Shown here: piece by piece, positions 1 to 50,248 of the stretch
Layout: every line of letters starts with the position of its first letter
Numbering within the stretch: position 1 is the first letter of the stretch
Translations under genes and position numbers: made by a program
Notes under the pieces: generated by a model
Database searches by the model: none
The model's input: the letters and a program-made list of their open reading frames with translations, nothing else
What the model was told of the DNA's origin: nothing
NCBI GenBank assembly: GCA_003217735.2
Contig: CP031585.1
Location: 5,349,501 to 5,413,500 of the forward strand
Length of the DNA: 64,000 bases
Source: Marinibacterium anthonyi
GTDB taxonomy: Bacteria; Pseudomonadota; Alphaproteobacteria; Rhodobacterales; Rhodobacteraceae
Direction: 5' to 3'

Positions 1-3000
1 GCCGCCATGATCACCCCTTCGGGCAGGTCCATCAACCGTCCCGACCGGGTCCAAAGCACCGCCGTATCGACCACGCGATCCGGCCATATCGCCCGCAAAA
101 GAACGGCATAGGCCCCCATCTGGCGCAGCAGCCCCTCGGGCACGACCTCGGCTGAGCCAGGCACAACCGCGTTGGTCTTGAAATCGACGGCAAGCACGCG
201 ACTTGGCGTAACGATCAGGCGGTCGATCACCCCGTGCAGCCTTTGGCCGCCGATCACGCCCGTCACCGGCACCTCGGCCAGCGTCCGGGGCGCGAACAGG
301 TCCGCCAGCGCCGGATCGCCCAGAAGCGCCCCCGCCTCACGCGCCAGTTCCCGGATCTCTGCCGGGTCCAGCGCCGGCAACAGCCCCGCCGCCAGTTCGG
401 GCCAGCGGTCTTCGCCCTGCCCCGCGAAATGTTCCAGCAGCAGGTGCACCGCCGTCCCGCGCGCCTTCGCCGCGTCTTCGTCCAGCCCGGCCTCGCCGGG
501 CAGCGCCTTGGCCCCGCCCAGGTCCGACGGGCTGATCGTCGCCGCCCGCTCCGGCGCCGGTGGCGCGGGGACGCGGAAGTGATCCGGCACGACAACCTCG
601 GTCGCCGTCACCGGTCGGGGATGCTCCAGCTCCAGCCCGTCCCAGTTGCCATGCACATGCAAGAGCCCGGTTTCGTCACCCGCTTCATTGTTCATGGGCA
701 GGTCACGCGCCCCGGATCGGCGCAACCCGTCCTCGATCTGTTGATACCAGCTGTCGCCATCCTTGGGCAGATCGCCCGCCGCCGCCACGATCAGCCATTT
801 CTCGGCCCGCGTCAGCGCGACATACAGCAACCGCTGCCGTTCCGCCCTTTGACGATCCTGGAACGCCGCCTTGGCGTCTTCCATGTCGGGCGGCATCCCG
901 TCCGCATTCACCCGCCACACCGGCGCGCCGCCGATCTCCATGATCTCGGGCGCGGTGGGGGCGTTGCGCTTGCCGGTATCGGGCAGGATCACGATCGGCG
1001 ATTCCAGCCCTTTCGATCCATGTACCGTCATCACGCGGATCAGGTCGCCCGCCGACCCCATCTGGCGCTTGATCTCAAGATCGTCGGTTTCCATCCAGCC
1101 CAGGAACCCCGTCAGGCTGGGCACGCCCGTGCGTTCATAGGCCAGCGCCTGCCCCAGAAGCGCGTTGATCCCATCCTCCGCCTCGGCCCCCAGCCGGCCC
1201 AGCAGCAACTGCCGCCCGTCATGGCGCGTCAGGATCCGTTCGATCAGGTCATAGGGCCGCAGGAAATCCGTCTGGCCCATCAGGTCGGCCAGCACGGCCA
1301 GGGTTTCGGGGTATTCCTTGCGGGTCCGCAGAACCTCCCACAGGAAGCCCTTGCGCCCCTGGGCCACCGAAAACAGATCCTGCTCAGACCACCCGAACAG
1401 CGGCGATTTCAGCGCGGTCGCCAATGACAGGTCATCCTCGGGCGTGGACAGGAACGACAACAGCGCCCCCAGGTCCCGCACGGCCAGTTCGGCGCCTACC
1501 TTCAGCCGGTCCGCCCCGGCAATCGGCAACCCGCGCGCCTTGCAGGCCCGGATGATCTCGGCGAACAGCTCGGACCGCCGCTGGACCAGGATCATCACGT
1601 CCCCTGCCCTGACCGGCCGCCGCACCAGCCGCCCGCCAAGTTCATCGGGCAGGGTTTCCACCCCGATCATCGCCTCGATCCGGTCGGCGATCCGTTCCGC
1701 CAGGATCACCGTGTGGTGCCGGCTGCCCTTGCGATCGACGGGTTCATGCCAGTCACGGTCTTCCTCGTCGGCGGCCTTGGGCACCACCGGCCACAGTTCC
1801 ACCCGCCCCGGCAGGTCGGACTTGAACGCCCGGTGCAGGCTGTCGGCGGCAAAGCCCGCCGACTCCTGTCCTTCGAACACCAGGTCCACCAGGCCCAGGA
1901 TCGCGGGCGAGGACCGGAACGAAAATTCCAGCGTCAGCGATTGCAGCCCCTGCCCGACCGGATCCAGACGCCGCCCGAATTCCGCCTGCATCCGGTCGAA
2001 GGCCTGCGGATCGGCGCCCTGGAAGGAATAGATCGACTGTTTCTTGTCACCGACCACAAAGATCGTCCGTTCGACGTCCCGCGCACCCTGCCCTGCGGTG
2101 AATTCCTGCGCCAGCTTCTCGATCACGTCCCATTGCACCGGGCTGGTATCCTGCGCCTCGTCCACCAGGATATGGTCGATCCCGCCGTCCAGCCGGAACA
2201 GCACCCAGGCCGCCACCGACGGATCGTTCAGCAACGCCCGGGCCCGCAGAATCAGGTCGTCGAAATCAAGCCATCCGCGCAACTGTTTCTGCCGCGCATA
2301 TTCCGGCAGGAACTGGGCCGCGAACGCATGCAACGCATGCGCCTTTCGCGCCGCCATCAGGCCCAACCGCAATGGTCGCGCGGCTTCGACCCGGTCCATC
2401 AGGTCATCCAGCGCGGGCAACAACGCGGCAACCGCCCCGTCCTTCTGCGCCGATTTCGTCGGGAATGATCCGATCTTGGCCTTGAACGGCTCCTTCGCGC
2501 TGCCGCCGGTCAACAGGACGCCTTCCAGAACCTCCAATGCGGCCAGATCCTCGGTCTTCAAGGCCGCCAGCTTCTCCGCCGCACGCTGATCCGTCTTCCC
2601 CGATCCGGCCAACGCCCGGGCCAACGCGCCCAGCATCTCAAGGTCGCCCGGCGCGAACGCCTGCCCGATCAGCGTGTCCTCATCCATCCCGCGCGGAAGG
2701 CCGAAGACACCAAAGATCTCCGCCTCGTCCAGCGGGGTCGAAAACGCCTCGCGCTTGCCCGCCAGGGCCGCCGTCAGAGCGTCGAGGCCGTCCGAAAGAT
2801 ACCCCGCAATCGCGTCGATCAGGTGCCCCTGCGGCCCCTCGGCCATTGCCTCGACGATCTCGGCGCGCAGCAATTCGGCCGACCGGTCTTCCATCTCCGA
2901 AAAATTCGGCGTCACCCCGGCTTCCAGAGGGAACCGCCGCAGCAGCGACGAACAGAACGAATGGATCGTCTGGATCTTCAGGCCCCCGGGCGTCTCGATC

Positions 3001-3335
3001 GCGCGGGCAAACAACGTCCTTGCCCGCGAAAGATCCCCGGCCGCGTCGGCGCCCAGCACCGACAGCGCCTTGCGCAGCGGCCCGTCCTCCAGCATCGCCC
3101 ATTCGCCCAGCCGCTTGAACAGCCGGTTCTGCATCTCGGACGCCGCCGCCTTGGTGTAGGTCAGGCACAGGATCTGCTGCGGTTCGACCCCCGACAGCAG
3201 CAGCCGCGCCACCCGGTCGGTCAGCACCCGCGTCTTGCCCGACCCCGCATTCGCCGCCAGCCAGGTCGATGCATCGGGCCGCGCCGCCTGCACCTGCCGT
3301 TCGGTCGCCGCGTCGCGCGCGTTGTCCGTGTTCAT
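1..3335 (-). CDS. addA: Double-strand break repair helicase-nuclease AddA (partial at the left edge)
   Basis: Large subunit of the AddAB helicase-nuclease, which resects double-strand breaks for RecA-dependent recombination in the cytoplasm. The N-terminus carries the UvrD-type Walker A (NAGSGKT, residues 29-35). A DEAQDTSP Walker B motif and a TVHGSKGLE motif follow. Towards the window edge the RecB-like nuclease motif VDFKTN is visible. The 3' end is missing. The ATG at 3333-3335 overlaps the addB stop as ATGA, which implies translational coupling. The reading frame is open over the whole visible 3.3 kb. Confidence 0.95.
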   Translation of the reverse strand, partial: MNTDNARDAATERQVQAARPDASTWLAANAGSGKTRVLTDRVARLLLSGVEPQQILCLTYTKAAASEMQNRLFKRLGEWAMLEDGPLRKALSVLGADAAGDLSRARTLFARAIETPGGLKIQTIHSFCSSLLRRFPLEAGVTPNFSEMEDRSAELLRAEIVEAMAEGPQGHLIDAIAGYLSDGLDALTAALAGKREAFSTPLDEAEIFGVFGLPRGMDEDTLIGQAFAPGDLEMLGALARALAGSGKTDQRAAEKLAALKTEDLAALEVLEGVLLTGGSAKEPFKAKIGSFPTKSAQKDGAVAALLPALDDLMDRVEAARPLRLGLMAARKAHALHAFAAQFLPEYARQKQLRGWLDFDDLILRARALLNDPSVAAWVLFRLDGGIDHILVDEAQDTSPVQWDVIEKLAQEFTAGQGARDVERTIFVVGDKKQSIYSFQGADPQAFDRMQAEFGRRLDPVGQGLQSLTLEFSFRSSPAILGLVDLVFEGQESAGFAADSLHRAFKSDLPGRVELWPVVPKAADEEDRDWHEPVDRKGSRHHTVILAERIADRIEAMIGVETLPDELGGRLVRRPVRAGDVMILVQRRSELFAEIIRACKARGLPIAGADRLKVGAELAVRDLGALLSFLSTPEDDLSLATALKSPLFGWSEQDLFSVAQGRKGFLWEVLRTRKEYPETLAVLADLMGQTDFLRPYDLIERILTRHDGRQLLLGRLGAEAEDGINALLGQALAYERTGVPSLTGFLGWMETDDLEIKRQMGSAGDLIRVMTVHGSKGLESPIVILPDTGKRNAPTAPEIMEIGGAPVWRVNADGMPPDMEDAKAAFQDRQRAERQRLLYVALTRAEKWLIVAAAGDLPKDGDSWYQQIEDGLRRSGARDLPMNNEAGDETGLLHVHGNWDGLELEHPRPVTATEVVVPDHFRVPAPPAPERAATISPSDLGGAKALPGEAGLDEDAAKARGTAVHLLLEHFAGQGEDRWPELAAGLLPALDPAEIRELAREAGALLGDPALADLFAPRTLAEVPVTGVIGGQRLHGVIDRLIVTPSRVLAVDFKTNAVVPGSAEVVPEGLLRQMGAYAVLLRAIWPDRVVDTAVLWTRSGRLMDLPEGVIMA

Positions 3336-6265
3336 GCCAGGTCCTCCGGCGTCGGATCGGTCGCCATGTCCCATTCGCCGTAGCGCGCCAACTGGTCGTA
3401 ATCGCCCGTATCGGTGTCCTTCTGCAGCATCCGGCGCGACGTATAGCCCTGCTCCGGCTCCCGGTAGGCCTGCAACAACGCCTTGAATTCGGCCCAGACC
3501 TGATCCACCGGCGTCTCGTCCAACGGCGCCGGTTCCTCCTTTGCGGCCCCCAGGCCAAGGAAAACCGCCCGCGCCACCGGTCCCGGTTCCAGCCCCTTGA
3601 ACGCCCCTTGCGTGATCATCGCCGCTTCCAGAAGCAGTTGTTTATCAAAGAGTTTCTGTTCCTTCGCGGTCGGCGGTCGCCCGGTCTTGTAATCATAGAT
3701 CACCCAGCGGCCCGAATTGTCCCGGTCGATCCGGTCGGCTTCTCCGGTCAAACGGAACGGCGGATCCTCGATCACCGCTTCGCCCCGGATCTCGAATGCC
3801 TCGGGCTTGCCCATCGACCGCCGCGTGCGTTCGCCATCCACGAACCATCCCGCGACCCGACCCAGCCGCGCCCGCCACAACCGCCGTTCCGCGGCCCAGG
3901 GGACTTCGGCCTCCAGCACCCGGTCGGCGATCTCCATCAGCTTGACGGGCGTGACCTGCGCATCATCCTCCGCCGTTTCGCGGATGAAATCCTCAAGCAC
4001 CTTGTGGATGACGGTGCCGCGCAGCATCGCGTCGGGTTCCGTCATCAACGGATCCAGCGCGCGCAGCCCCAGCACGTTCTGCGCGTAGATGGCGTAAGGA
4101 TCCCGGATCAGCGTCTTGATCCGCGTCACCGACAATTGCGTCGGCCGCGTTTCGACCGGTGGCCTTGGCGACGGCCGGATCGCCGGCGCAATCCGCGCCG
4201 CCTGTTCCAAGGCCACCGCCCGGTCGATCCACAATTGCCCCCGCGCCCGCATCGCGGCCAGGGCCTCCGGCCCCTGTCGCGCGGGCAACCCGCCCAGCAG
4301 GTTCACCATCCGGTTCACCCAGCGCGACGGCACGGTTTCCGCATCCGACGACCGTTTCGCCCGGGTCATCCAGACCTCGGCCGCGCCGGCGGCCTGCTGG
4401 AAATCATGGGCCGCCAGCCCGACCCGCCGTTCGGGCAGCAACAGACCCGCCCGGTGCCGCAACTGCCGGTTCAGCCAGGGATCGGGCCGCGCCGCCTCGG
4501 GCCAGGACCCTTCGTTCAACCCCGCCAGGATCAGCAGATCGGCGCCCTGCACCCGCGCCTCAAGCGTCCCCCAGATCATCACCAGCGGATGCGGCTTGTC
4601 CCGATCGCGCACGGTTTCCCTTTGAAGCAAAGCACTTAGCAGGTCGCCCATGTCGCGCGCCGACATATCGCCGCCCGCATCCGCATGCAACGCCAGCGCG
4701 TCCAGTACCTTGCGCGCCTCCTGCCCGGCATTCTGATCCCACAGCCCACCACTGTCGGACCCGACCGACCCCGCCGCCGCGCGTTCGGCCAGGTCCCGCA
4801 GCGCATCCACCCGCAGGGCCAGCGGCGCCGGGTCCGGATCATGCGCCGTCAGCAGCGTCGCGGCCACCCAGGTCCGCCATTCCTCGGGCGGCGGCGTGCG
4901 TTTGCGATCCGCCATGTCCGATGCGAATTGTGTCAGGGTCGCCGGTTCCGGATGCGGCGGCCCCTTGCGGCGCAGCCACAGTTCAAGGTCGCGGGTGTAG
5001 ATCAGGTGATCCGCCCGCCCCGGCCCGCTGTGGCACAGCGGGTGTTTCAACATCGCCAGCAGGCTTTCGGGCGTCACCGGTTTGGCCACCAGCTCGGCCA
5101 CCTGCCGCAGGAACCGGCCCGGAGGTGCCAGGTGCAGCGGTTGCCCGGCGCTGTCGTCGGCGGTGATGCCCCAGCGGTCCAGCGCTGCTTCGACCTGGCG
5201 GGTCAGCATCCGGTCGGGGGTGATCAGCGCGGCGGGCTGGCCGTCTTCCACCGCCTGGCGCAGGCGCAGCGCGATGGCCAGCGCTTCCTCGCGCGGGTCG
5301 GTCGCCTCGACCAGCGTGACACCCTCCATTGCCGGAACCAGGTCGGGCAGATGGGGCCCTTCGCTGAGCCAGGCATCGGTGACGGGCGCGGGGCGCAGGG
5401 CCAGGGACAGCACCCGGTTCCGGTCCGGCGCGGGCGGCGTGCCGTCGGTCCAGGGCCGGATATCGGACGGGGCCAGGTTCATCCGGTTCATCAGGGCCTT
5501 GTAGCGATATTGCGGGTGATCTTCGGCGCTTAGCGCGTCGTTCATCCCGTCCCAGACGGCGCCGGGCAGATCGGTGTCGTAGCCCGGCAGAACCACGGCG
5601 CCCTGCGGCAACCGCGCCACCGCCTGCATCAGGATCTGCATCATGCCGCGCGACCCGGTCGACCCGGCCAGGATCACCGGCGTCTCGGGCGGGTTGTCGC
5701 CCCATTGCGCGGCCAGCGTTTCCGACACCAACCGTTGGCGCGCCTCGGCCTCGGGCGCATTCGGGTCGGCCAGCACGCCGGCGATCGCGATGAACTGCTG
5801 CGCGCGCGCCCAATGGCCGGATACATCGCTGACGTCCAGATCGGCGATGACGTCAGGCCCGACGCCTTCGCCCTGCATCTCGGCGAACAGATCGGCAAGG
5901 CTGTCGGCCAGGTCGTAAACCGCGGCGCGCGGGGCCAGGTCGGGCTGCGCTTCCACCAGTTTCGCGACCAGTTGCGCCAGTTCCAGACGCCGGCGCAGCG
6001 GCGGGATGGCCGGGGGAATGCCGGTCAGGCCCACGCCCAGGTCGGTCATCAGGCGGATCTGCGGCAGCAGGCGCGGCGGCCCGGCGTCGAACAGGTCGCG
6101 CAAACGGCGGGCCATCCGGCGGGTGTTGACGATCAGCAGGACGCGGGCCCAGGCCTCGGGCGGTTGTCCCTGCATCCGGACCTCAAGTCCCCTGAGCAAT
6201 TCGGCCGGGAAATCCGCGCCGCAGGGCAGGCCGAAGACGCGGGGGGTCGTGGTGGGTTCAAACAT
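3332..6265 (-). CDS. addB: Double-strand break repair protein AddB
   Basis: 977-residue partner of AddA, of the alphaproteobacterial AddB type. A helicase-like fold is followed by a C-terminal PD-(D/E)xK nuclease. The nuclease motif is visible as IYDYKTGR (Asp858, Lys860), with a downstream KQLLLEA segment typical of RecB-family nucleases. It would degrade one strand at a break and contribute to Chi-like recognition. The start at 6265 overlaps the murU stop by 8 bases and the stop overlaps addA by 4, so it lies inside a coupled operon. Confidence 0.94.
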   Translation of the reverse strand: MFEPTTTPRVFGLPCGADFPAELLRGLEVRMQGQPPEAWARVLLIVNTRRMARRLRDLFDAGPPRLLPQIRLMTDLGVGLTGIPPAIPPLRRRLELAQLVAKLVEAQPDLAPRAAVYDLADSLADLFAEMQGEGVGPDVIADLDVSDVSGHWARAQQFIAIAGVLADPNAPEAEARQRLVSETLAAQWGDNPPETPVILAGSTGSRGMMQILMQAVARLPQGAVVLPGYDTDLPGAVWDGMNDALSAEDHPQYRYKALMNRMNLAPSDIRPWTDGTPPAPDRNRVLSLALRPAPVTDAWLSEGPHLPDLVPAMEGVTLVEATDPREEALAIALRLRQAVEDGQPAALITPDRMLTRQVEAALDRWGITADDSAGQPLHLAPPGRFLRQVAELVAKPVTPESLLAMLKHPLCHSGPGRADHLIYTRDLELWLRRKGPPHPEPATLTQFASDMADRKRTPPPEEWRTWVAATLLTAHDPDPAPLALRVDALRDLAERAAAGSVGSDSGGLWDQNAGQEARKVLDALALHADAGGDMSARDMGDLLSALLQRETVRDRDKPHPLVMIWGTLEARVQGADLLILAGLNEGSWPEAARPDPWLNRQLRHRAGLLLPERRVGLAAHDFQQAAGAAEVWMTRAKRSSDAETVPSRWVNRMVNLLGGLPARQGPEALAAMRARGQLWIDRAVALEQAARIAPAIRPSPRPPVETRPTQLSVTRIKTLIRDPYAIYAQNVLGLRALDPLMTEPDAMLRGTVIHKVLEDFIRETAEDDAQVTPVKLMEIADRVLEAEVPWAAERRLWRARLGRVAGWFVDGERTRRSMGKPEAFEIRGEAVIEDPPFRLTGEADRIDRDNSGRWVIYDYKTGRPPTAKEQKLFDKQLLLEAAMITQGAFKGLEPGPVARAVFLGLGAAKEEPAPLDETPVDQVWAEFKALLQAYREPEQGYTSRRMLQKDTDTGDYDQLARYGEWDMATDPTPEDLA

Positions 6266-6938
6266 TGCCGATCAGCGCCTCGGCCAGCGCGATGCCCTCG
6301 GGACGGCCGACATCGCACCAGGTGCCGGGGTAGGTCACGCCGTATAGCCGCCCCGTGGCGATCAGCCGGTCCCAGAGCAGGTTCAGCGAAAACGCGGTGT
6401 CCGGGATTTCGGCCAGCCCGTCGGTCTTCAGCATCTGCGCGCCGCCATAGACAACGGCCGTGCCACGGGTCAGCGCGCCATTGTCATCATGGTCGAAATC
6501 CCCGGCGCCCATGCGCCCGTGGGCGTTTTCGGGGTGCAGACAGACCAGCAGCGCGTCCATCTTGTCGGGATCCCAGGCTTTCAGCAGCAATTCCAACGGG
6601 TTCGGCCCGTTCCAGACCACGTCCGGGTTCAATGTGATCACAGGATCGGCGCCCAGCAGGGGCAGGGCGTTGCGCAACCCGCCGCCGGTTTCCAGGATCT
6701 GCGGCCATTCCAACGTTGTGATCACATTACGCGCGGCCAGGTGATCGGCCAGCTGTTGCGGCCTGTAATGCAGGTTCGCGACGATCCGGGGGGGATCTAT
6801 CGCGCGGGCCAGGTCCAGCGCGTGGTCGATCAGCGGGCGGCCCGAGACTTCGATCAGCGGTTTGGGGCGGTCGGCGGTCAGCGCGCCCATGCGGGTGCCG
6901 AACCCGGCGGCGAACAAAAGGACGGAAGGGGCAGTCAT
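6258..6938 (-). CDS. murU: N-acetylmuramate-1-phosphate uridylyltransferase (MurU type)
   Basis: 226-residue nucleotidyltransferase. The N-terminal signature is LFAAGFGTRM followed by DRPKPLIEV, the NTP-binding loop of sugar-phosphate nucleotidyltransferases. LNPDV supplies the metal-binding Asp. MurU converts MurNAc-1-phosphate to UDP-MurNAc in the peptidoglycan recycling route that bypasses MurA and so the fosfomycin target. The AmgK kinase gene directly upstream (10 bases apart) supports this rather than a generic mannose-1-phosphate guanylyltransferase. A different sugar specificity cannot be excluded from sequence alone. Confidence 0.85.
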   Translation of the reverse strand: MTAPSVLLFAAGFGTRMGALTADRPKPLIEVSGRPLIDHALDLARAIDPPRIVANLHYRPQQLADHLAARNVITTLEWPQILETGGGLRNALPLLGADPVITLNPDVVWNGPNPLELLLKAWDPDKMDALLVCLHPENAHGRMGAGDFDHDDNGALTRGTAVVYGGAQMLKTDGLAEIPDTAFSLNLLWDRLIATGRLYGVTYPGTWCDVGRPEGIALAEALIGNV

Positions 6939-6948
6939 GTGGGGGCAG

Positions 6949-7944
6949 TCATTCTGGCGCTTTCAGCCGGTTCAGGATCTCAGCCGTGGGGCGGGGCAGG
7001 GCATCGGACAGCGGCTGGGCGACGGCGGCCAGCGCGGGATGATCCAGGTTGCGTTCCACGTGGGCAAAGACCCGGGGGATAAGGGTCAGGTAATGCGGCT
7101 TTGCGTGGTCCTGTGCAAGCCGGGCGAAGACGCCAAGAATGCGCAGGTTCCGCTGCAGACCAAGCACGGCGCAGGCGGTGCGCAGGTCATGGTCGGCGAC
7201 GCCCGTCATGTCGCGGAAACGGTCGATCATCGCCAGCTCGACCCCCACCGACACGTCCCGGCGCACATCCTGCAGCAGCGACACCAGATCATAGGCGGCG
7301 GGCCCGGCGACGGCATCCTGGAAATCCAGAAGGCCGACATTGGCCGGTTCGTCGCGGTCAGGCAGCCAGATCAGGTTATCGGCGTGATAATCGCGGTGCA
7401 GCAGGACCATGGGCCCATGCAGCGCGTCGTGAAAGATGTCTGTCAGGCGGGGGATCAGCCTTGGCCCGGAATCGGTGCCGGTGATCGGCTGGGCATAGCG
7501 GGCAAAGGCGACGTCGGTCATCTGCGCCAGTTGCAGCGGATCAAAGGTGATCAGGCCGTCGGGCAGGGGCACCTGTTGCAGCGCGCCCAGCAGGTCGGTC
7601 GCGGCCTCGTACAGCGGGCGTTCCTGGCCCGGATCCCGCGCGATCAGCCGGGTGAAGGTCGCGTCGCCCAGATCTTCCAGCAGCAGCAGGTCGGTGCCGG
7701 CCGACAGGATGCGCGGGGCGGACAGGCCCCCGGCCCGGAGGCAATCGGCGAGCCGTGCAAAGGTCTTGATCCCGGCCGCGTCACCTTCTGGGGCAATCAT
7801 CAGGATGGCGGTTTCACCCGACGCCGGGTGGGTCAGCCTGTCATAGCGCCGGGCCGAGGCATCGCCGGCCAGTGCCGTACGCCAGGCATCGTCCCAGCCG
7901 GCCTTGGCCAGGAAGGTGGCAATTTCCCCGTCGCGGTCGTTCAT
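6949..7944 (-). CDS. amgK: N-acetylmuramate/N-acetylglucosamine kinase (AmgK type)
   Basis: 331-residue aminoglycoside-phosphotransferase-fold kinase. The catalytic loop HRDYHADNLIW and the metal-binding LLDFQDA are visible. AmgK phosphorylates recycled MurNAc at C1, producing the substrate for MurU. The chosen ATG overlaps the tsaE stop (ATGA). The reading frame stays open upstream inside tsaE, but that stretch is a shadow of tsaE. Order tsaE-amgK-murU is the usual arrangement of this recycling pair in alphaproteobacteria. Confidence 0.87.
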   Translation of the reverse strand: MNDRDGEIATFLAKAGWDDAWRTALAGDASARRYDRLTHPASGETAILMIAPEGDAAGIKTFARLADCLRAGGLSAPRILSAGTDLLLLEDLGDATFTRLIARDPGQERPLYEAATDLLGALQQVPLPDGLITFDPLQLAQMTDVAFARYAQPITGTDSGPRLIPRLTDIFHDALHGPMVLLHRDYHADNLIWLPDRDEPANVGLLDFQDAVAGPAAYDLVSLLQDVRRDVSVGVELAMIDRFRDMTGVADHDLRTACAVLGLQRNLRILGVFARLAQDHAKPHYLTLIPRVFAHVERNLDHPALAAVAQPLSDALPRPTAEILNRLKAPE

Positions 7945-8411
7945 GCGGCGATGTCCGCAAGCCGGCCGGCCCATCCGGGCGCAGCCGAGGTGATGGTCAG
8001 CCGGCGCAGGTCCAGGTCGTCGCGATCCGGGGTGAAGGTCAGGCGCAGGGCGGTGTCGGGCGCCAGGTCGCCCAGCCGGTCGGGCCATTCCACCAGGCAG
8101 ATCGCCTCGTCGAAGGCGTCGACAAGGCCCAGGTCCTCGACTTCGTCGGGTCCGGACATGCGGTAGAGGTCGCAATGCCATACGGGTCCGCGCAGGGTGT
8201 CGTAGGTCTGGACCAGGGTGAAGGTCGGGCTGGGCACGTCCTCGGGGATGTCCTGCAGCGACTGGATCAGGCTGCGGGCGAAATGCGATTTGCCGGCGCC
8301 GACGGGACCGTCCAGCAAAAGAACGTCGCCCGCAGACAGGCGGCGGCCCAACTGGGCCGCGAACCGGGCGGTGGCCTCGGGCGAGGGCAGGGTGATTGCA
8401 TAGGGCGACAT
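7941..8411 (-). CDS. tsaE: tRNA threonylcarbamoyladenosine biosynthesis ATPase TsaE
   Basis: 156-residue P-loop protein with Walker A GPVGAGKS (residues 35-42) and the family motifs SPTFTLV and HCDLYRM. TsaE works with TsaB and TsaD to make the t6A modification on tRNAs that read ANN codons. TsaD is encoded in the same window at 22113-23207. The gene lies 42 bases after the PAS gene and overlaps amgK by four bases. Confidence 0.93.
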   Translation of the reverse strand: MSPYAITLPSPEATARFAAQLGRRLSAGDVLLLDGPVGAGKSHFARSLIQSLQDIPEDVPSPTFTLVQTYDTLRGPVWHCDLYRMSGPDEVEDLGLVDAFDEAICLVEWPDRLGDLAPDTALRLTFTPDRDDLDLRRLTITSAAPGWAGRLADIAA

Positions 8412-8453
8412 GGCGCCACAATGCCGCCCGTCACGCGCCCCCGCAAGCGAAGA

Positions 8454-10037
8454 TCAGAAGGCGTCGGCGGCCATGCGGCCCGACACCGCCGGTGCGGCAT
8501 CGGCGAGCGACGAGGCGCGGAAACAGACCAGGGTCGCGCCGTCGTGAATCGGGTGGACGGTGCAGATGACGTCTTCGCCGGTGCCAAGCGTGACATTGGC
8601 CCACCAGGTGGTCCGGTCGGTCGGCGCGGCGACAAAGTCGCGCAGATCGCCCCAGACCGGGGTAGGGGCGGACCGGGCCTGCCAGTCGCGTGTGGCGTCG
8701 AAGATCGTGACCTCGGCAAAGCTGGCGTCGGGATCGACGTTCCACAGCTGCCGGTAGGCCGCGTTCGACAGGGTCAGCACGCCGTTGGCGCCAAAGACCG
8801 CGACCGCGTCGTCGATATGGTCCAGGATCGACTGGCTGGTCTCGATCTCGGAGCGGAAGCGGCGGGTCAGCGTGACCTCGGCGGTGATGTCCTCGAACAG
8901 GAAGGCGACGGCGCCGTCGGGATGGGGCCGGCCGCTGATGCGATAGATCGACCCCGAGGGCAGCGACCAGGTTTCGCGATAGCTGCCATCGGCGGCGGCG
9001 GCGACAAGGTCGGCCATCTGGTCGCGCCAGGTGTGGTAATTCTTGGGTTCGGGCATCATCCGGGCGTCGCGCAGGCGGTCGAAAAAGCTGAGAAGGTTGG
9101 GCCGGGCCGACAGGAAATCCGCCGGCAGCGCGGTCAGGTCGATCAGCGCCGGGTTGAACAGCGCCAGCTGCCGGTTGCGGTCGAAGATGGCCAGCCCGAT
9201 CGACAGTTGCGCAAAGGTCTTGGTCAGGGTCTGGACGAAATTGCGCTGCGCGATCTCGGCATTGACCACGGCGCCGACATCGACGGCATAGAACATCCGA
9301 TAGCCGTCATGCCGCGCGATCCAGACATCGTACCAGAAGAAACTGTCCTGCCCGGGGATCGAGATCGACGCGCGGATCCGGCTGCCGCTGGGCTTGGTGT
9401 CCAGCGCCGACTGGAACAGCCGCTGCCCCGATTGCGGCCGCGTGCCGTGGGTGCGGTGAAACAGATCGGCATAGGCACCGTTGTACCAGCTGACCTCCCC
9501 CCCGTCGTCGACGCGCCAGATCGGGTAGGGCGCCAGGTCCATCGTCGAACGCAGCGTTTCGTATTCGACTTCCAGCGCGTGCAGCGCCGCCGGTGTCCGC
9601 CGGTTGCCCAGGCCCGGCAATTGCATGGGCCGCACTTCCAGCCGCAGGATGCCGTCCAGCCGTTCGGCCAGCAGGTCATAGCCATCCAGCGCATCGCGGG
9701 GGGAAAACACCGCCTCGTCCTCGACCGTGTCCAGATCGTCCAGGCCGGCGAACCGCTTGCCCAGGATCTTGCGGATCAGCGCCAGGTCGGTCAGGTCGAT
9801 GCGCGTGCCGTCCTCGGGGTCGGCATCCATCAGGGCGCGGCCGGCGGGCGAAGTATCGATCAGCGTTTCCTCGTCGAACAGGAACACCGGTTCGCCCTGT
9901 TCGGGCAGGCGCGACACCTGGCGGGTGCGACTGGACGTGCCCCAGCGGCCTGCCTGAAGCCAGATCGTCGCGCCAAGGGCCGCCGCCATGCACAGAAGCG
10001 CAAGCCCCGCCCATTCCAAGATATCAGAAAATGCCAT
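8454..10037 (-). CDS. PAS-domain protein without kinase domain, DivL-like
   Basis: 527 residues. One N-terminal membrane segment (about residues 9-27) is followed by tandem PAS-type regions, for example around MDLAPYPIWRV, IGLAIFDRNRQL and DDAVAVFGANG. No HATPase or dimerisation/phosphoacceptor motif is present. Kinase-less PAS proteins of this layout are known in Rhodobacterales as DivL, which acts on the CckA-ChpT-CtrA relay. A TTAA-N7-TTAA CtrA-type box lies about 50 bases upstream, which fits that assignment. Position next to regB and ahead of tsaE suggests the first gene of the addBA operon. The DivL name is inference from architecture and context. Confidence 0.75.
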   Translation of the reverse strand: MAFSDILEWAGLALLCMAAALGATIWLQAGRWGTSSRTRQVSRLPEQGEPVFLFDEETLIDTSPAGRALMDADPEDGTRIDLTDLALIRKILGKRFAGLDDLDTVEDEAVFSPRDALDGYDLLAERLDGILRLEVRPMQLPGLGNRRTPAALHALEVEYETLRSTMDLAPYPIWRVDDGGEVSWYNGAYADLFHRTHGTRPQSGQRLFQSALDTKPSGSRIRASISIPGQDSFFWYDVWIARHDGYRMFYAVDVGAVVNAEIAQRNFVQTLTKTFAQLSIGLAIFDRNRQLALFNPALIDLTALPADFLSARPNLLSFFDRLRDARMMPEPKNYHTWRDQMADLVAAAADGSYRETWSLPSGSIYRISGRPHPDGAVAFLFEDITAEVTLTRRFRSEIETSQSILDHIDDAVAVFGANGVLTLSNAAYRQLWNVDPDASFAEVTIFDATRDWQARSAPTPVWGDLRDFVAAPTDRTTWWANVTLGTGEDVICTVHPIHDGATLVCFRASSLADAAPAVSGRMAADAF

Positions 10038-10087
10038 GCCCGGAATCCGTCCCGCAATTCATGGGCCCTATCCTGCGCGCAAAGAAG

Positions 10088-10102
10088 TTAACGCTTGCTT
10101 AA
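10088..10102. promoter_or_regulatory. CtrA-type binding box upstream of the DivL-like gene
   Basis: Perfect TTAA-N7-TTAA with spacer CGCTTGC in the 100-base gap between the regB stop and the PAS gene start. The arrangement matches the full CtrA recognition consensus. Its distance to the start codon (about 50 bases) suits overlap with the promoter. Confidence 0.65.
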
Positions 10103-10137
10103 ACCGGAACAGCCTGGAACGACCGGATAATCCGGTC

Positions 10138-11550
10138 TCAGGCCTTGATCGGGCGATTGGCGCCGATGGGCACGGCGTTGTCGCCCAGTTGCGCGTCGAT
10201 CTTGGCGCGCGGCCAGACGACTTCGACGATGGCGCCGCGGCGTTCGGCGATCGACATCTCGGCGCTGTAGGGATCGGTGCCGTTGGCAAAGCTCAGTTCC
10301 GCCCCCGAGCGTTCCAGCAGCGTCTTGGCGATGAACAGCCCCAGCCCCATGCCTTCGTATTCCGGCCGCGTGATCAGTTCCGCATCGGACCGGCGGCGCC
10401 GCACGAAGGGATCGCCGATGCGCCCGATCAGCTGCGGAGGAAAGCCGTTGCCGTCATCCAGGATCCGGACCGAGATCGTGTCGTCGGTCCACATCGATTC
10501 CACCCAGACGTTGGCGCGCGCGAAGTCCACCGCGTTCTGGATCAGGTTGCGCATGCCGTGGATGACCTCGGGCATGCGCAGGATCGACGGTTGCTGCAGG
10601 CTTCCGCCGTCGCCGGGGCCTTCTTCGAAATGGATGAACTTGCCGCGGTGCATGTGCGGTTCGGCCGCCTCTTCCAGAACGGCGGACAGCGGCGCCTGGC
10701 GCAGGTGCAGGTCGTCCTTTCCGGCGCGGCCCATGTCGCGCAGGATATCGCGGCAGCGGTCGGCCTGCTGGCGGATCAGGGCGGCGTCCTCGCGCAAGTC
10801 GGGACGGTCGTCCAGTTCTTCCATCAGCTCGGCCGAGGTCAGCTTGATCGTGGCCAGCGGCGTGCCCAGTTCGTGCGCGGCGGCGGCCACCACGCCGCCC
10901 AGGTCGGTCAGCTTCTGTTCGCGGGCCAGCGCCATCTGGGTCGCGGTCAGCGCGTCGGCCATCGAATTCATCTCGGACGACACGCGGCGCGAATACAGCG
11001 CCATGAAGACCGTGGCGATGATCAGCGACAGCCAGGTGCCAAAGATGAAAAGGTCGGGCATCTTCAGGATGGTGCCATCCTCGGCCCTGAGCGGCAGGTG
11101 GATATCCGCCAGAAGCGTGACGATGACGATGGCGGTGCCGCCGACCAGCGTCGCCGACCGCAGCGACAGCACGTTGGCGGCGATGGTCACCGGCGCCAGG
11201 ATCAGCACCGAAAACGGGTTGTTCAGCCCGCCGGTCAGGAACAGCAGCGCCGACAGCTGCAGCAGATCGAACAGGACCATCAGGAAATTCTCGGCCTCGG
11301 TCAGGCGCTTGTTTTCCGGATAGACGAACATGGCGATCAGGTTGCCGATCACGGCGACGCCCACGGCGACGAAACACAGGCCCACGTCCAGCGACAGGTG
11401 ATAGGTGCGCGCGGTCACCGTGATCGCGGTGACCTGACCCACGATCGCGACCCATCGTAGCAGGATAAGCGTGCGCAGGCGGATCCAGTTGCCGCGCTGC
11501 TGGCCCAGTCTTAAGTTCTGCTCCAATTGCTGCATCGCGTGCCCGATCAC
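10138..11550 (-). CDS. regB: Redox sensor histidine kinase RegB/PrrB
   Basis: 470 residues. Six hydrophobic segments lie in the first 190 residues. The ubiquinone-binding heptapeptide GGLNNPF is near residues 107-113. The H box AAAHELGTPL has His226, and the redox-box cysteine in DRCRDIL is Cys266. These match the known His225/Cys265 of Rhodobacter RegB within one residue. An HATPase domain with N and G boxes ends the protein. It phosphorylates RegA under reducing conditions to control photosynthesis, respiration and carbon or nitrogen fixation genes. The listed start is GTG; an ATG at 11535 is an alternative. Divergent from senC. Confidence 0.94.
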   Translation of the reverse strand: MIGHAMQQLEQNLRLGQQRGNWIRLRTLILLRWVAIVGQVTAITVTARTYHLSLDVGLCFVAVGVAVIGNLIAMFVYPENKRLTEAENFLMVLFDLLQLSALLFLTGGLNNPFSVLILAPVTIAANVLSLRSATLVGGTAIVIVTLLADIHLPLRAEDGTILKMPDLFIFGTWLSLIIATVFMALYSRRVSSEMNSMADALTATQMALAREQKLTDLGGVVAAAAHELGTPLATIKLTSAELMEELDDRPDLREDAALIRQQADRCRDILRDMGRAGKDDLHLRQAPLSAVLEEAAEPHMHRGKFIHFEEGPGDGGSLQQPSILRMPEVIHGMRNLIQNAVDFARANVWVESMWTDDTISVRILDDGNGFPPQLIGRIGDPFVRRRRSDAELITRPEYEGMGLGLFIAKTLLERSGAELSFANGTDPYSAEMSIAERRGAIVEVVWPRAKIDAQLGDNAVPIGANRPIKA

Positions 11551-11633: not shown

Positions 11634-12257
11634 ATGACCCGTTACATCGCCATCGCCGCCGCGGGGCTGGTCGCCGTCGTTCTGGTCGGCACATATGTGA
11701 TCACACTGACCTCCAAGCCCGATGACATCTTCGCCGCCTGCGACGGCGGCGCCGTCGCCGGGGGCGCGATCGGCGGGCCCTTCGAGCTGGTGAACAAGGA
11801 CGGCCAGACCGTCACCGACAAGGATGTGATCACGGAACCGTCGCTGATCTACTTCGGCTACACCTTCTGCCCCGACGTCTGCCCGCTGGACGTGTCGCGC
11901 AACGCCGAAGCCGTGGATGTCCTGGCCGAGCGCGGGCAAAGCGTCACGCCGATCTTCGTCTCGATCGACCCGGAACGCGATACGCCCGAGGTCGTGGGCC
12001 AGTTCGCCGAGGTCATGCATGACAAGATGATCGGCCTGACCGGCAGCCCCGACCAGGTGGCGGCGGCTTCCAAGGCCTACAAGACCTATTACAAGAAGCA
12101 GGACGGCGACGACCCGGACTATTACCTCGTCGACCATTCCACCTTTACCTATCTCACGATGCCCGAACACGGCACCGTGGGCTTTTTCCGGCGCGACATG
12201 TCGGCGGATCAGATGGCCGATGCCGTCGGATGCTTCCTTGACCAAGCCGGCGAATAG
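11634..12257 (+). CDS. senC: SCO1/SenC family copper chaperone
   Basis: 207 residues with an N-terminal signal anchor and a thioredoxin-like fold. The copper ligands are the CPDVC motif (Cys79, Cys83) and a downstream His in VDHSTFTYL. SenC/PrrC delivers copper to cytochrome c oxidase on the periplasmic side and is linked genetically to RegBA signalling. The ATG is preceded by GGGAG. An upstream TTG in the same frame at 11583 would add 17 residues before a normal signal sequence, so it was rejected. Confidence 0.93.
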   Translation: MTRYIAIAAAGLVAVVLVGTYVITLTSKPDDIFAACDGGAVAGGAIGGPFELVNKDGQTVTDKDVITEPSLIYFGYTFCPDVCPLDVSRNAEAVDVLAERGQSVTPIFVSIDPERDTPEVVGQFAEVMHDKMIGLTGSPDQVAAASKAYKTYYKKQDGDDPDYYLVDHSTFTYLTMPEHGTVGFFRRDMSADQMADAVGCFLDQAGE

Positions 12258-12323
12258 CTGGCATTTGACCTTTCATGACAGTCACGTAGTATTCGTGCGC
12301 TGCAAGTAAGGTTGGAGAAGAAC

Positions 12324-12878
12324 ATGGCCGACGGCGCGACCCAGGACATCGGACCGGACAAGACCCTGCTGCTTGTCGACGATGACGAACCCTTCCTGCG
12401 CCGCCTGGCCAAGGCGATGGAAAAGCGTGGTTTCGAGATCGAGACAGCCGGATCCGTCGCCGCGGGACGCGCCATCGCCACCGCCCGGCCGCCGGCCTTC
12501 GCGGTGGTCGATCTGCGGCTTGAAGACGGCAATGGCCTGGACGTGGTCGAAGTGCTGCGTGAAAAGCGGCCCGATTGCCGGGTGGTCGTTCTAACCGGCT
12601 ATGGCGCCATCGCCACCGCCGTGGCCGCCGTGAAGATCGGCGCGACGGATTACCTGTCGAAACCCGCCGACGCCACCGACATCACCAATGCGCTGCTGGC
12701 CAAGGGCGACGAACTGCCGCCGCCGCCGGAAAACCCGATGAGCGCCGATCGCGTGCGCTGGGAACATATCCAGCGGGTCTATGAGCTGTGTGACCGCAAC
12801 GTGTCGGAAACCGCGCGCCGGCTGAACATGCACCGCCGCACGCTGCAGCGGATCCTGGCGAAACGGTCGCCGCGCTAG
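12324..12878 (+). CDS. regA: Redox response regulator RegA/PrrA (ActR)
   Basis: 184 residues, the usual family length. The receiver domain has acidic pocket VDDDE (residues 18-22) and phosphoacceptor Asp63 in VVDLRLEDG. A proline linker (PPPPEN) leads to a Fis-like helix-turn-helix ending in ETARRLNMHRRTLQRIL. Start chosen at the ATG after GGAGAAG, which places the phosphoacceptor exactly at position 63. Partner of RegB. It converges on a LysR gene and no hvrA gene follows. Confidence 0.95.
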   Translation: MADGATQDIGPDKTLLLVDDDEPFLRRLAKAMEKRGFEIETAGSVAAGRAIATARPPAFAVVDLRLEDGNGLDVVEVLREKRPDCRVVVLTGYGAIATAVAAVKIGATDYLSKPADATDITNALLAKGDELPPPPENPMSADRVRWEHIQRVYELCDRNVSETARRLNMHRRTLQRILAKRSPR

Positions 12879-49475: not shown

Positions 49476-50248
49476 GCCTGCCCTATCGGCTGGACCCGGG
49501 GCGCCCCGTCCAGATCGGGCTGATCGTCCTGCAGGAAGACGAGACCATCGAGGATGATTTTCGCCGGCTGATGCCATCGGACGTGACGCTGATGGTGTCG
49601 CGGGTGCCGTCCGGCCGCGATGTCACGCCCGACAGCCTGCAGGAGATGGAGGCGCATCTGTCTGTCTCGGCCTCGCTGTTCCCGCGAGGATCCGCCCTGA
49701 AGGCGATGGGTTACGGCTGCACTTCGGGCACGGCGCAGATCGGCCCGGCGCGCATCGCGGCGAGGGTGGCCGAGGGCGGACCGACCTGCCCGGTGACCGA
49801 ACCGGTCACGGCGCTGATCGCCGCCTGCCGGGCGCTTGGCCTGCGCCGGCTGGCGCTGTTGTCGCCCTATGTCGCGCCGGTTTCGGAACGGTTGCGGCAG
49901 GTGCTGGGGGCCCAGGGGCTGGACACCCCGGCCTTTGGCAGCTTTGGTGTGTCGCAAGAAGCGATGGTGGCGCGCATCGACGCGCCGTCGCTGATCGACG
50001 CGGCCTGCGCGGTGGCGCAGGGGGAACAGGTGGACGGGCTTTTCATGTCCTGCACAAACCTGCGCACGCTGGGGGCAATTCCGGTTCTGGAACAACGGCT
50101 TGGCCTGCCGGTCCTGTCATCGAACCTGGTGCTGGCCTGGCATCTTCTGACGCTCGCGGGGCTGGCGATGCCCGCTGATCGGCCCGGCCGGCTGTTCGCG
50201 CAGGACATGGGCAAATCCCGAAAATTGGACCCGTTAAGCGGCCCTTAA
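49472..50248 (+). CDS. Asp/Glu racemase-superfamily protein (EutA/maleate isomerase-like)
   Basis: 258 residues. The paired catalytic cysteines of the superfamily are seen as Cys83 (GYGCTSGTAQIG) and Cys194 (MSCTNLRT). The closest named relatives are maleate cis-trans isomerase, arylmalonate decarboxylase and the ectoine-utilisation protein EutA. It overlaps the M24 gene and would act on the product of that hydrolase. The stop codon forms part of a CtrA-type box for motB. Confidence 0.85.
   Translation: MSLPYRLDPGRPVQIGLIVLQEDETIEDDFRRLMPSDVTLMVSRVPSGRDVTPDSLQEMEAHLSVSASLFPRGSALKAMGYGCTSGTAQIGPARIAARVAEGGPTCPVTEPVTALIAACRALGLRRLALLSPYVAPVSERLRQVLGAQGLDTPAFGSFGVSQEAMVARIDAPSLIDAACAVAQGEQVDGLFMSCTNLRTLGAIPVLEQRLGLPVLSSNLVLAWHLLTLAGLAMPADRPGRLFAQDMGKSRKLDPLSGP
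50234..50248. promoter_or_regulatory. CtrA-type binding box upstream of motB
   Basis: Perfect TTAA-N7-TTAA (spacer GCGGCCC), 45 bases ahead of the motB ATG and overlapping the last codons of the EutA-like gene. Confidence 0.7.

Follow-up and report, generated by a model that had tools for sequence, protein, structure and literature searches.

A conserved CtrA box in front of the kinase-less divL gene of Marinibacterium anthonyi and other Rhodobacterales

The divL locus and its CtrA box

The window analysed here, a 64,000-nt stretch of the Marinibacterium anthonyi genome, carries at its low end a run of minus-strand genes that leads from a RegB-like sensor kinase through a DivL-like PAS protein to tsaE, amgK-, murU-, addB- and addA-like genes (Table 1). 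Pfam scanning of the PAS protein detected PAS domains and neither HisKA nor HATPase, which is the architecture of the short DivL of Rhodobacterales, described as an order-wide trait (PMC9430884). The presence of the CckA-ChpT-CtrA relay in this genome was judged on matches to two of its members, CtrA (79% identical to the Caulobacter CtrA query) and ChpT.

Table 1. Features of the divL locus, in coordinates of the window
Feature	Position	Strand	Remarks
Divergent SenC (PF02630) and response regulator	11634-12878		beyond the RegB-like gene
RegB-like sensor kinase, upstream neighbour	10138..11550	-	HisKA and HATPase_c
CtrA box	10088..10102	-	exact match; kept in 79/80 and 106/119 orthologue loci (overlapping sets)
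Predicted -10 element CAGGAT (A at -11, T at -7)	10070..10075	-	conserved A-N3-T spacing
Predicted divL transcription start region	10061..10065	-	deduced from the -10 element
Kinase-less DivL-like PAS protein, 527 aa	8454..10037	-	PAS_7, PAS_8, PAS_4, PAS; no HisKA/HATPase (Pfam)
tsaE	7941..8411	-	PF02367, E 1.6e-35
amgK-like kinase	6949..7944	-	APH PF01636
murU-like nucleotidyltransferase	6258..6938	-	NTP_transf_3
addB-like nuclease	3332..6265	-	PDDEXK_1 PF12705
addA-like frame	3..3335	-	start at 3335, reaches the low window edge; named by position and by the sequence-only reading

The box lies inside the 100-bp gap between the HisKA/HATPase gene and the PAS-only gene, 50 bp from the divL ATG. 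Its plus-strand letters, TTAACGCTTGCTTAA, are an exact TTAA-N7-TTAA. On the divL strand it reads TTAAGCAAGCGTTAA and is followed by C, so that the asymmetric form TTAA-N7-TTAAC, which is the CtrA consensus given in the literature (PMC4046655), is directed towards the PAS gene. The motif that we looked for in a CtrA-activated promoter, TTAA-N7-TTAA(C), is thus present in exact form with its trailing C. A previous sequence-only reading had taken these letters for the CtrA palindrome and had placed them before a kinase-less DivL-like PAS gene; both statements were borne out, the first by the exact match to the consensus and the second by the domain scan.

The window contains two exact TTAA-N7-TTAA sites (the other at 50234-50248), against a mean of 0.01 in dinucleotide-shuffled sequence. 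The 6.81-Mb genome as a whole has 26 exact sites and 29 sites of the reversed control pattern; therefore, the exact motif alone is weak evidence of function. The second site of the window is located where an arylmalonate-decarboxylase-like gene ends, about 45 bp ahead of motB (50293), which is followed by a flgE-like gene, and this position fits a flagellar CtrA target. Fourteen frames beside 12 of 15 loci (of the 26 sites) were scanned with Pfam and gave a mixed picture, including a LuxR-type regulator and RodZ; 2 of these 14 frames had no Pfam match. An exact box at 1501-1515 of locus L083 (C1:1045354 of the same genome) stands ahead of a LuxR-type autoinducer-binding regulator, and resembles the CtrA sites reported at quorum-sensing genes of some roseobacters (PMC4046655).

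Conservation of the box and anatomy of the promoter

One scan yielded 195 loci, and among the best 80 of these the exact box was found between regB and divL in 79, the lone exception being Thalassovita taeanensis (L029). A DivL match was obtained in 289 of the 292 genomes drawn from Rhodobacterales, from which a second set of 119 loci was picked by hand, with about one locus per genus and some divergent extras; 106 of the 119 carry the exact box, and as the two sets share some genomes their counts are not to be summed. The remaining 1,505,151 bp of the same 119 loci contain no exact box. Of the 13 loci lacking it, a site with one mismatch lies near the expected place in eight (L119, L122, L127, L138, L158, L179, L203 and L214), and five (L155, L190, L199, L200 and L213) have no site even at one mismatch. 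Three of the 13 are kinase-bearing DivLs; among the ten others, L155 and L190 are boxless at one mismatch or fewer, yet their genomes have CtrA. Conservation upstream of orthologues, by which the sequence-only reading had proposed to check the box, is therefore seen in both sets. A chance AT-rich match within a GC-rich intergenic gap, the explanation that the genome-wide counts of site and control pattern would allow, has practically no probability left and was rejected because the box stands at the same place before orthologues in both sets and is absent from the 1.5 Mb of flanks.

Two variants of the locus were observed. Ahead of divL in L149 (3002-3027), L175 (2924-2949) and L132 (2872-2897, all in oriented coordinates), two overlapping exact boxes have one TTAA half-site in common, giving three TTAA at 11-bp steps. 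In L196, L197 and L198, all of genus g9, DivL is shortened to about 390-420 aa and lacks its N-terminal part, and the box is still present.

To describe the promoter, 107 sequences (the 106 of the 119-locus set and that of the window) were aligned on the box. After the half-sites come C (0.86), a second C (0.71) and an A/T-rich tail; the spacer is weakly conserved. One further clear block appeared in the alignment: counted from the box start, an A stands at +27/+28 and a T at +31/+32. With either register (27 or 28 bp) allowed, the share of promoters with this A-N3-T is 91% in the set of 79 and 80% in the set of 106; at other offsets its median is 8%. In the window the spacing falls on CAGGAT at 10075-10070, a predicted -10 element; the transcription start is therefore expected near 10063. 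The box would then lie over the -35 region with the predicted -10 at a fixed distance, as was sought for a CtrA-activated promoter, and this arrangement fits the pattern of activation. A promoter scan of 6200-10200 returned no promoters, and the same scan gave three terminator-like sites, about the number expected from shuffled sequence.

The gene served by the box and the loss of the DivL kinase

The genes from divL to addA run at most 42 nt apart, the divL-tsaE gap itself being 42 nt in the window, and no terminator-like site was found in that gap. Owing to these small gaps and the lack of such a site between divL and tsaE, CtrA-dependent read-through into tsaE-addA is possible. Across loci the distance from divL to the tsaE match has a median of 69 nt and is 200 nt or less in 106 of 114, and the gene order is retained in most of the 119 loci. 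These near or overlapping genes in a lasting order, together with the finding of one study (PMC9765227) that codon usage of addAB follows a trend like that of gene transfer agent genes, are what could be expected if the box drove the whole divL-tsaE-amgK-murU-addB-addA transcript and if CtrA control of wall-recycling and recombination genes were what selection retains.

Genomes in which the two genes have parted speak against this. In five genomes (G211, G087, G048, G098 and G057) tsaE has moved away from divL; the exact box stands ahead of divL in all five, whereas the 1.5 kb ahead of the separated tsaE contains neither an exact nor a one-mismatch box in any of them. Locus L126 also lacks a tsaE match, and was left out of the five separations, as amgK directly follows divL there. 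Three of the 292 genomes (G251, G138 and G232) have no divL. None of the three has a box before tsaE, although G251 has an intact-looking CtrA; in two of them tsaE directly follows regB, and the sole one-mismatch site among the divL-less loci (in L239) is within amgK. Counting both kinds of case, a box before tsaE with divL absent or distant was kept in none of eight genomes, and we conclude from the five separations and three losses that the box belongs to divL. In addition, a literature search for CtrA with addAB or tsaE gave, among the matches listed, no paper that places these genes under CtrA. Operon-wide control as the selected role of the box was accordingly rejected on the separation and loss cases, and we regard it as unlikely. 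The suggestion that tsaE, amgK, murU and addBA could come under cell-cycle control thus found no support, and selection on read-through is without support in these sequences.

Two of the divL-less genomes differ in their relay genes. In G138 (L239 and L236) the ctrA frame has an internal TAA stop, possibly reflecting decay of the CtrA relay. The 2.6-Mb genome G232 (L240) gave no CtrA, ChpT or DivL match in these searches and has no regB-like gene within 1.5 kb before tsaE, so the whole relay may have been lost.

HisKA was detected by Pfam in the DivL of eight genomes within the order (L199, L200, L213, L242, L243, L249, L264 and L267), none of which has the exact box at divL, L243 having a one-mismatch site. 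As outgroup we used 34 DivLs of the same class but of other families, obtained from 34 of 60 genomes that had a match. All 34 carry HisKA and HATPase; the exact box is upstream in 1 of 33 (L250), L273 being not judgeable, and L244 has a one-mismatch site. In the consensus of the 34 proteins the HisKA motif carries a Tyr, which we take to be a mark of DivL. Three DivLs within the order (L212, L258 and L265; 661-749 aa) have no HisKA match and already have the box. The rest of the 119 were classed as kinase-less because of their length (at most 615 aa), L190, L209 and L210 among them being also scanned with Pfam.

The short DivLs were found by homology to the kinase-bearing DivL of other orders and were joined with 14 outgroup DivLs on one quick tree of 56 DivLs, which has several long branches and from which mostly empty kinase columns were dropped (70% fill filter). 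This tree shows one change of kinase state and six of box state. Its kinase-less rows group together (support 94), L258 branching off first and L212 and L265 next; this placement puts the gain of the box and the loss of the kinase on the same branch. As the kinase was lost in a single event, the association is not a repeated test, and a Fisher test for association between kinase and box was set aside. The sequences are suggestive of a link between kinase loss and box gain.

Probable feedback on the CtrA relay

Taken together, we consider it very probable that divL has a promoter of its own in which the box serves as a CtrA site across the -35 region, and that phosphorylated CtrA activates divL. 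CtrA~P would bind both half-sites, which lie one turn of the helix from each other, and would recruit RNA polymerase to the predicted -10 at 10070-10075, thereby activating divL; DivL would stimulate CckA, and CckA via ChpT would phosphorylate CtrA, closing a positive loop. CtrA-activated positive feedback via divL is the most likely reading, in which direct CtrA binding, the point where transcription starts and the positive sign of the loop are inferred for this genome. The site, its conservation, the -10 spacing, the box travelling with divL and its appearance on the kinase-loss branch were computed here. For the fall of the divL transcript without CtrA and the promotion of CtrA phosphorylation by DivL we rely on papers on relatives.

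According to these papers, divL expression is lowered in D. shibae, where a promoter site was also predicted, by mutation of ctrA, cckA or chpT (Wang et al. 2014, PMC4046655), in R. capsulatus by ctrA knockout (Fogg 2019, PMC6363796) and, as divL1, in P. inhibens by mutation of ctrA or cckA (a 2025 paper, PMC12363192). Expression was measured there, whereas here the control is predicted from sequence. DivL is stated to promote CtrA phosphorylation, and its stimulation of CckA is reported for R. capsulatus (PMC9143464, citing Westbye 2018). Against a simple transfer of these results, D. shibae has two divL candidates, and the published R. capsulatus primers (rcc00042) gave no match against 291 loci; the published divL loci of the three species are likely the regB-tsaE locus. 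The feedback foreseen by the sequence-only reading is thus supported for divL, on the motif, its conservation and the CtrA-dependence of divL in relatives; control of the downstream genes is not supported, there being no box before tsaE in the genomes where divL is distant or lost.

A protein bound over the predicted -35 can also block polymerase, and the sign of regulation is unreadable from sequence; CtrA could accordingly repress divL and form a negative loop. The divL transcript falls and does not rise in the reported ctrA mutants of three relatives, which makes this very unlikely. We give an equally low probability to the idea that the TTAA half-sites are read by, or common to, another regulator such as a Crp/Fnr protein. 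A Dnr/Fnr site in D. shibae and CtrA have a TTAAC half-site in common, and the same paper (PMC7232146) reports FnrL sites beside R. capsulatus divL; however, the 4+7+4 spacing and trailing C are those of the published CtrA consensus TTAA-N7-TTAAC, and the sole genome without CtrA and ChpT, G232, is also without divL and the box.

The preferred reading, activation of divL by CtrA, has close precedents. Brilli 2010 (PMC2877005) described a Rhodobacterales "cluster B" without DivJ, PleC and DivK, predicted CtrA control of cckA and of a kinase-less divL, and named the feedback. The regulator, the kinase-less DivL, the predicted feedback and the link to the absence of DivK, DivJ and PleC are the same; the present analysis differs in its far wider sampling, in tying the box to divL and not to the downstream genes, in the fixed -10 and in the kinase-loss branch. 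Osp of R. sphaeroides (PMC9430884) is likewise the product of a CtrA-controlled gene and feeds back on CckA; a CtrA-like site lies 54 bp ahead of its start codon. Osp inhibits CckA in a negative feedback, whereas DivL is reported to stimulate it. The observation is confirmed and the loop mostly already described: the feedback idea has been known since 2010, and the order-wide conservation, the assignment of the target and the evolutionary timing are the additions made here.

These results turn a prediction made genome by genome into an order-wide rule, by which nearly all kinase-less DivLs have a CtrA promoter and kinase-bearing ones almost never do. They also warn against placing tsaE-amgK-murU-addBA in the CtrA regulon by position alone. 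They point to one rewiring step in the evolution of the CtrA relay, and the positive loop that they suggest can be tested. We tentatively suggest, as a scenario with rather less than an even chance, that, when DivK and the pseudokinase portion of DivL were lost in the order, the CtrA site gained on the same branch replaced phospho-signalling by a transcriptional input, making the relay self-reinforcing. If true, such a loop could supply all-or-none CtrA-dependent traits, for example the release of gene transfer agents by few cells.
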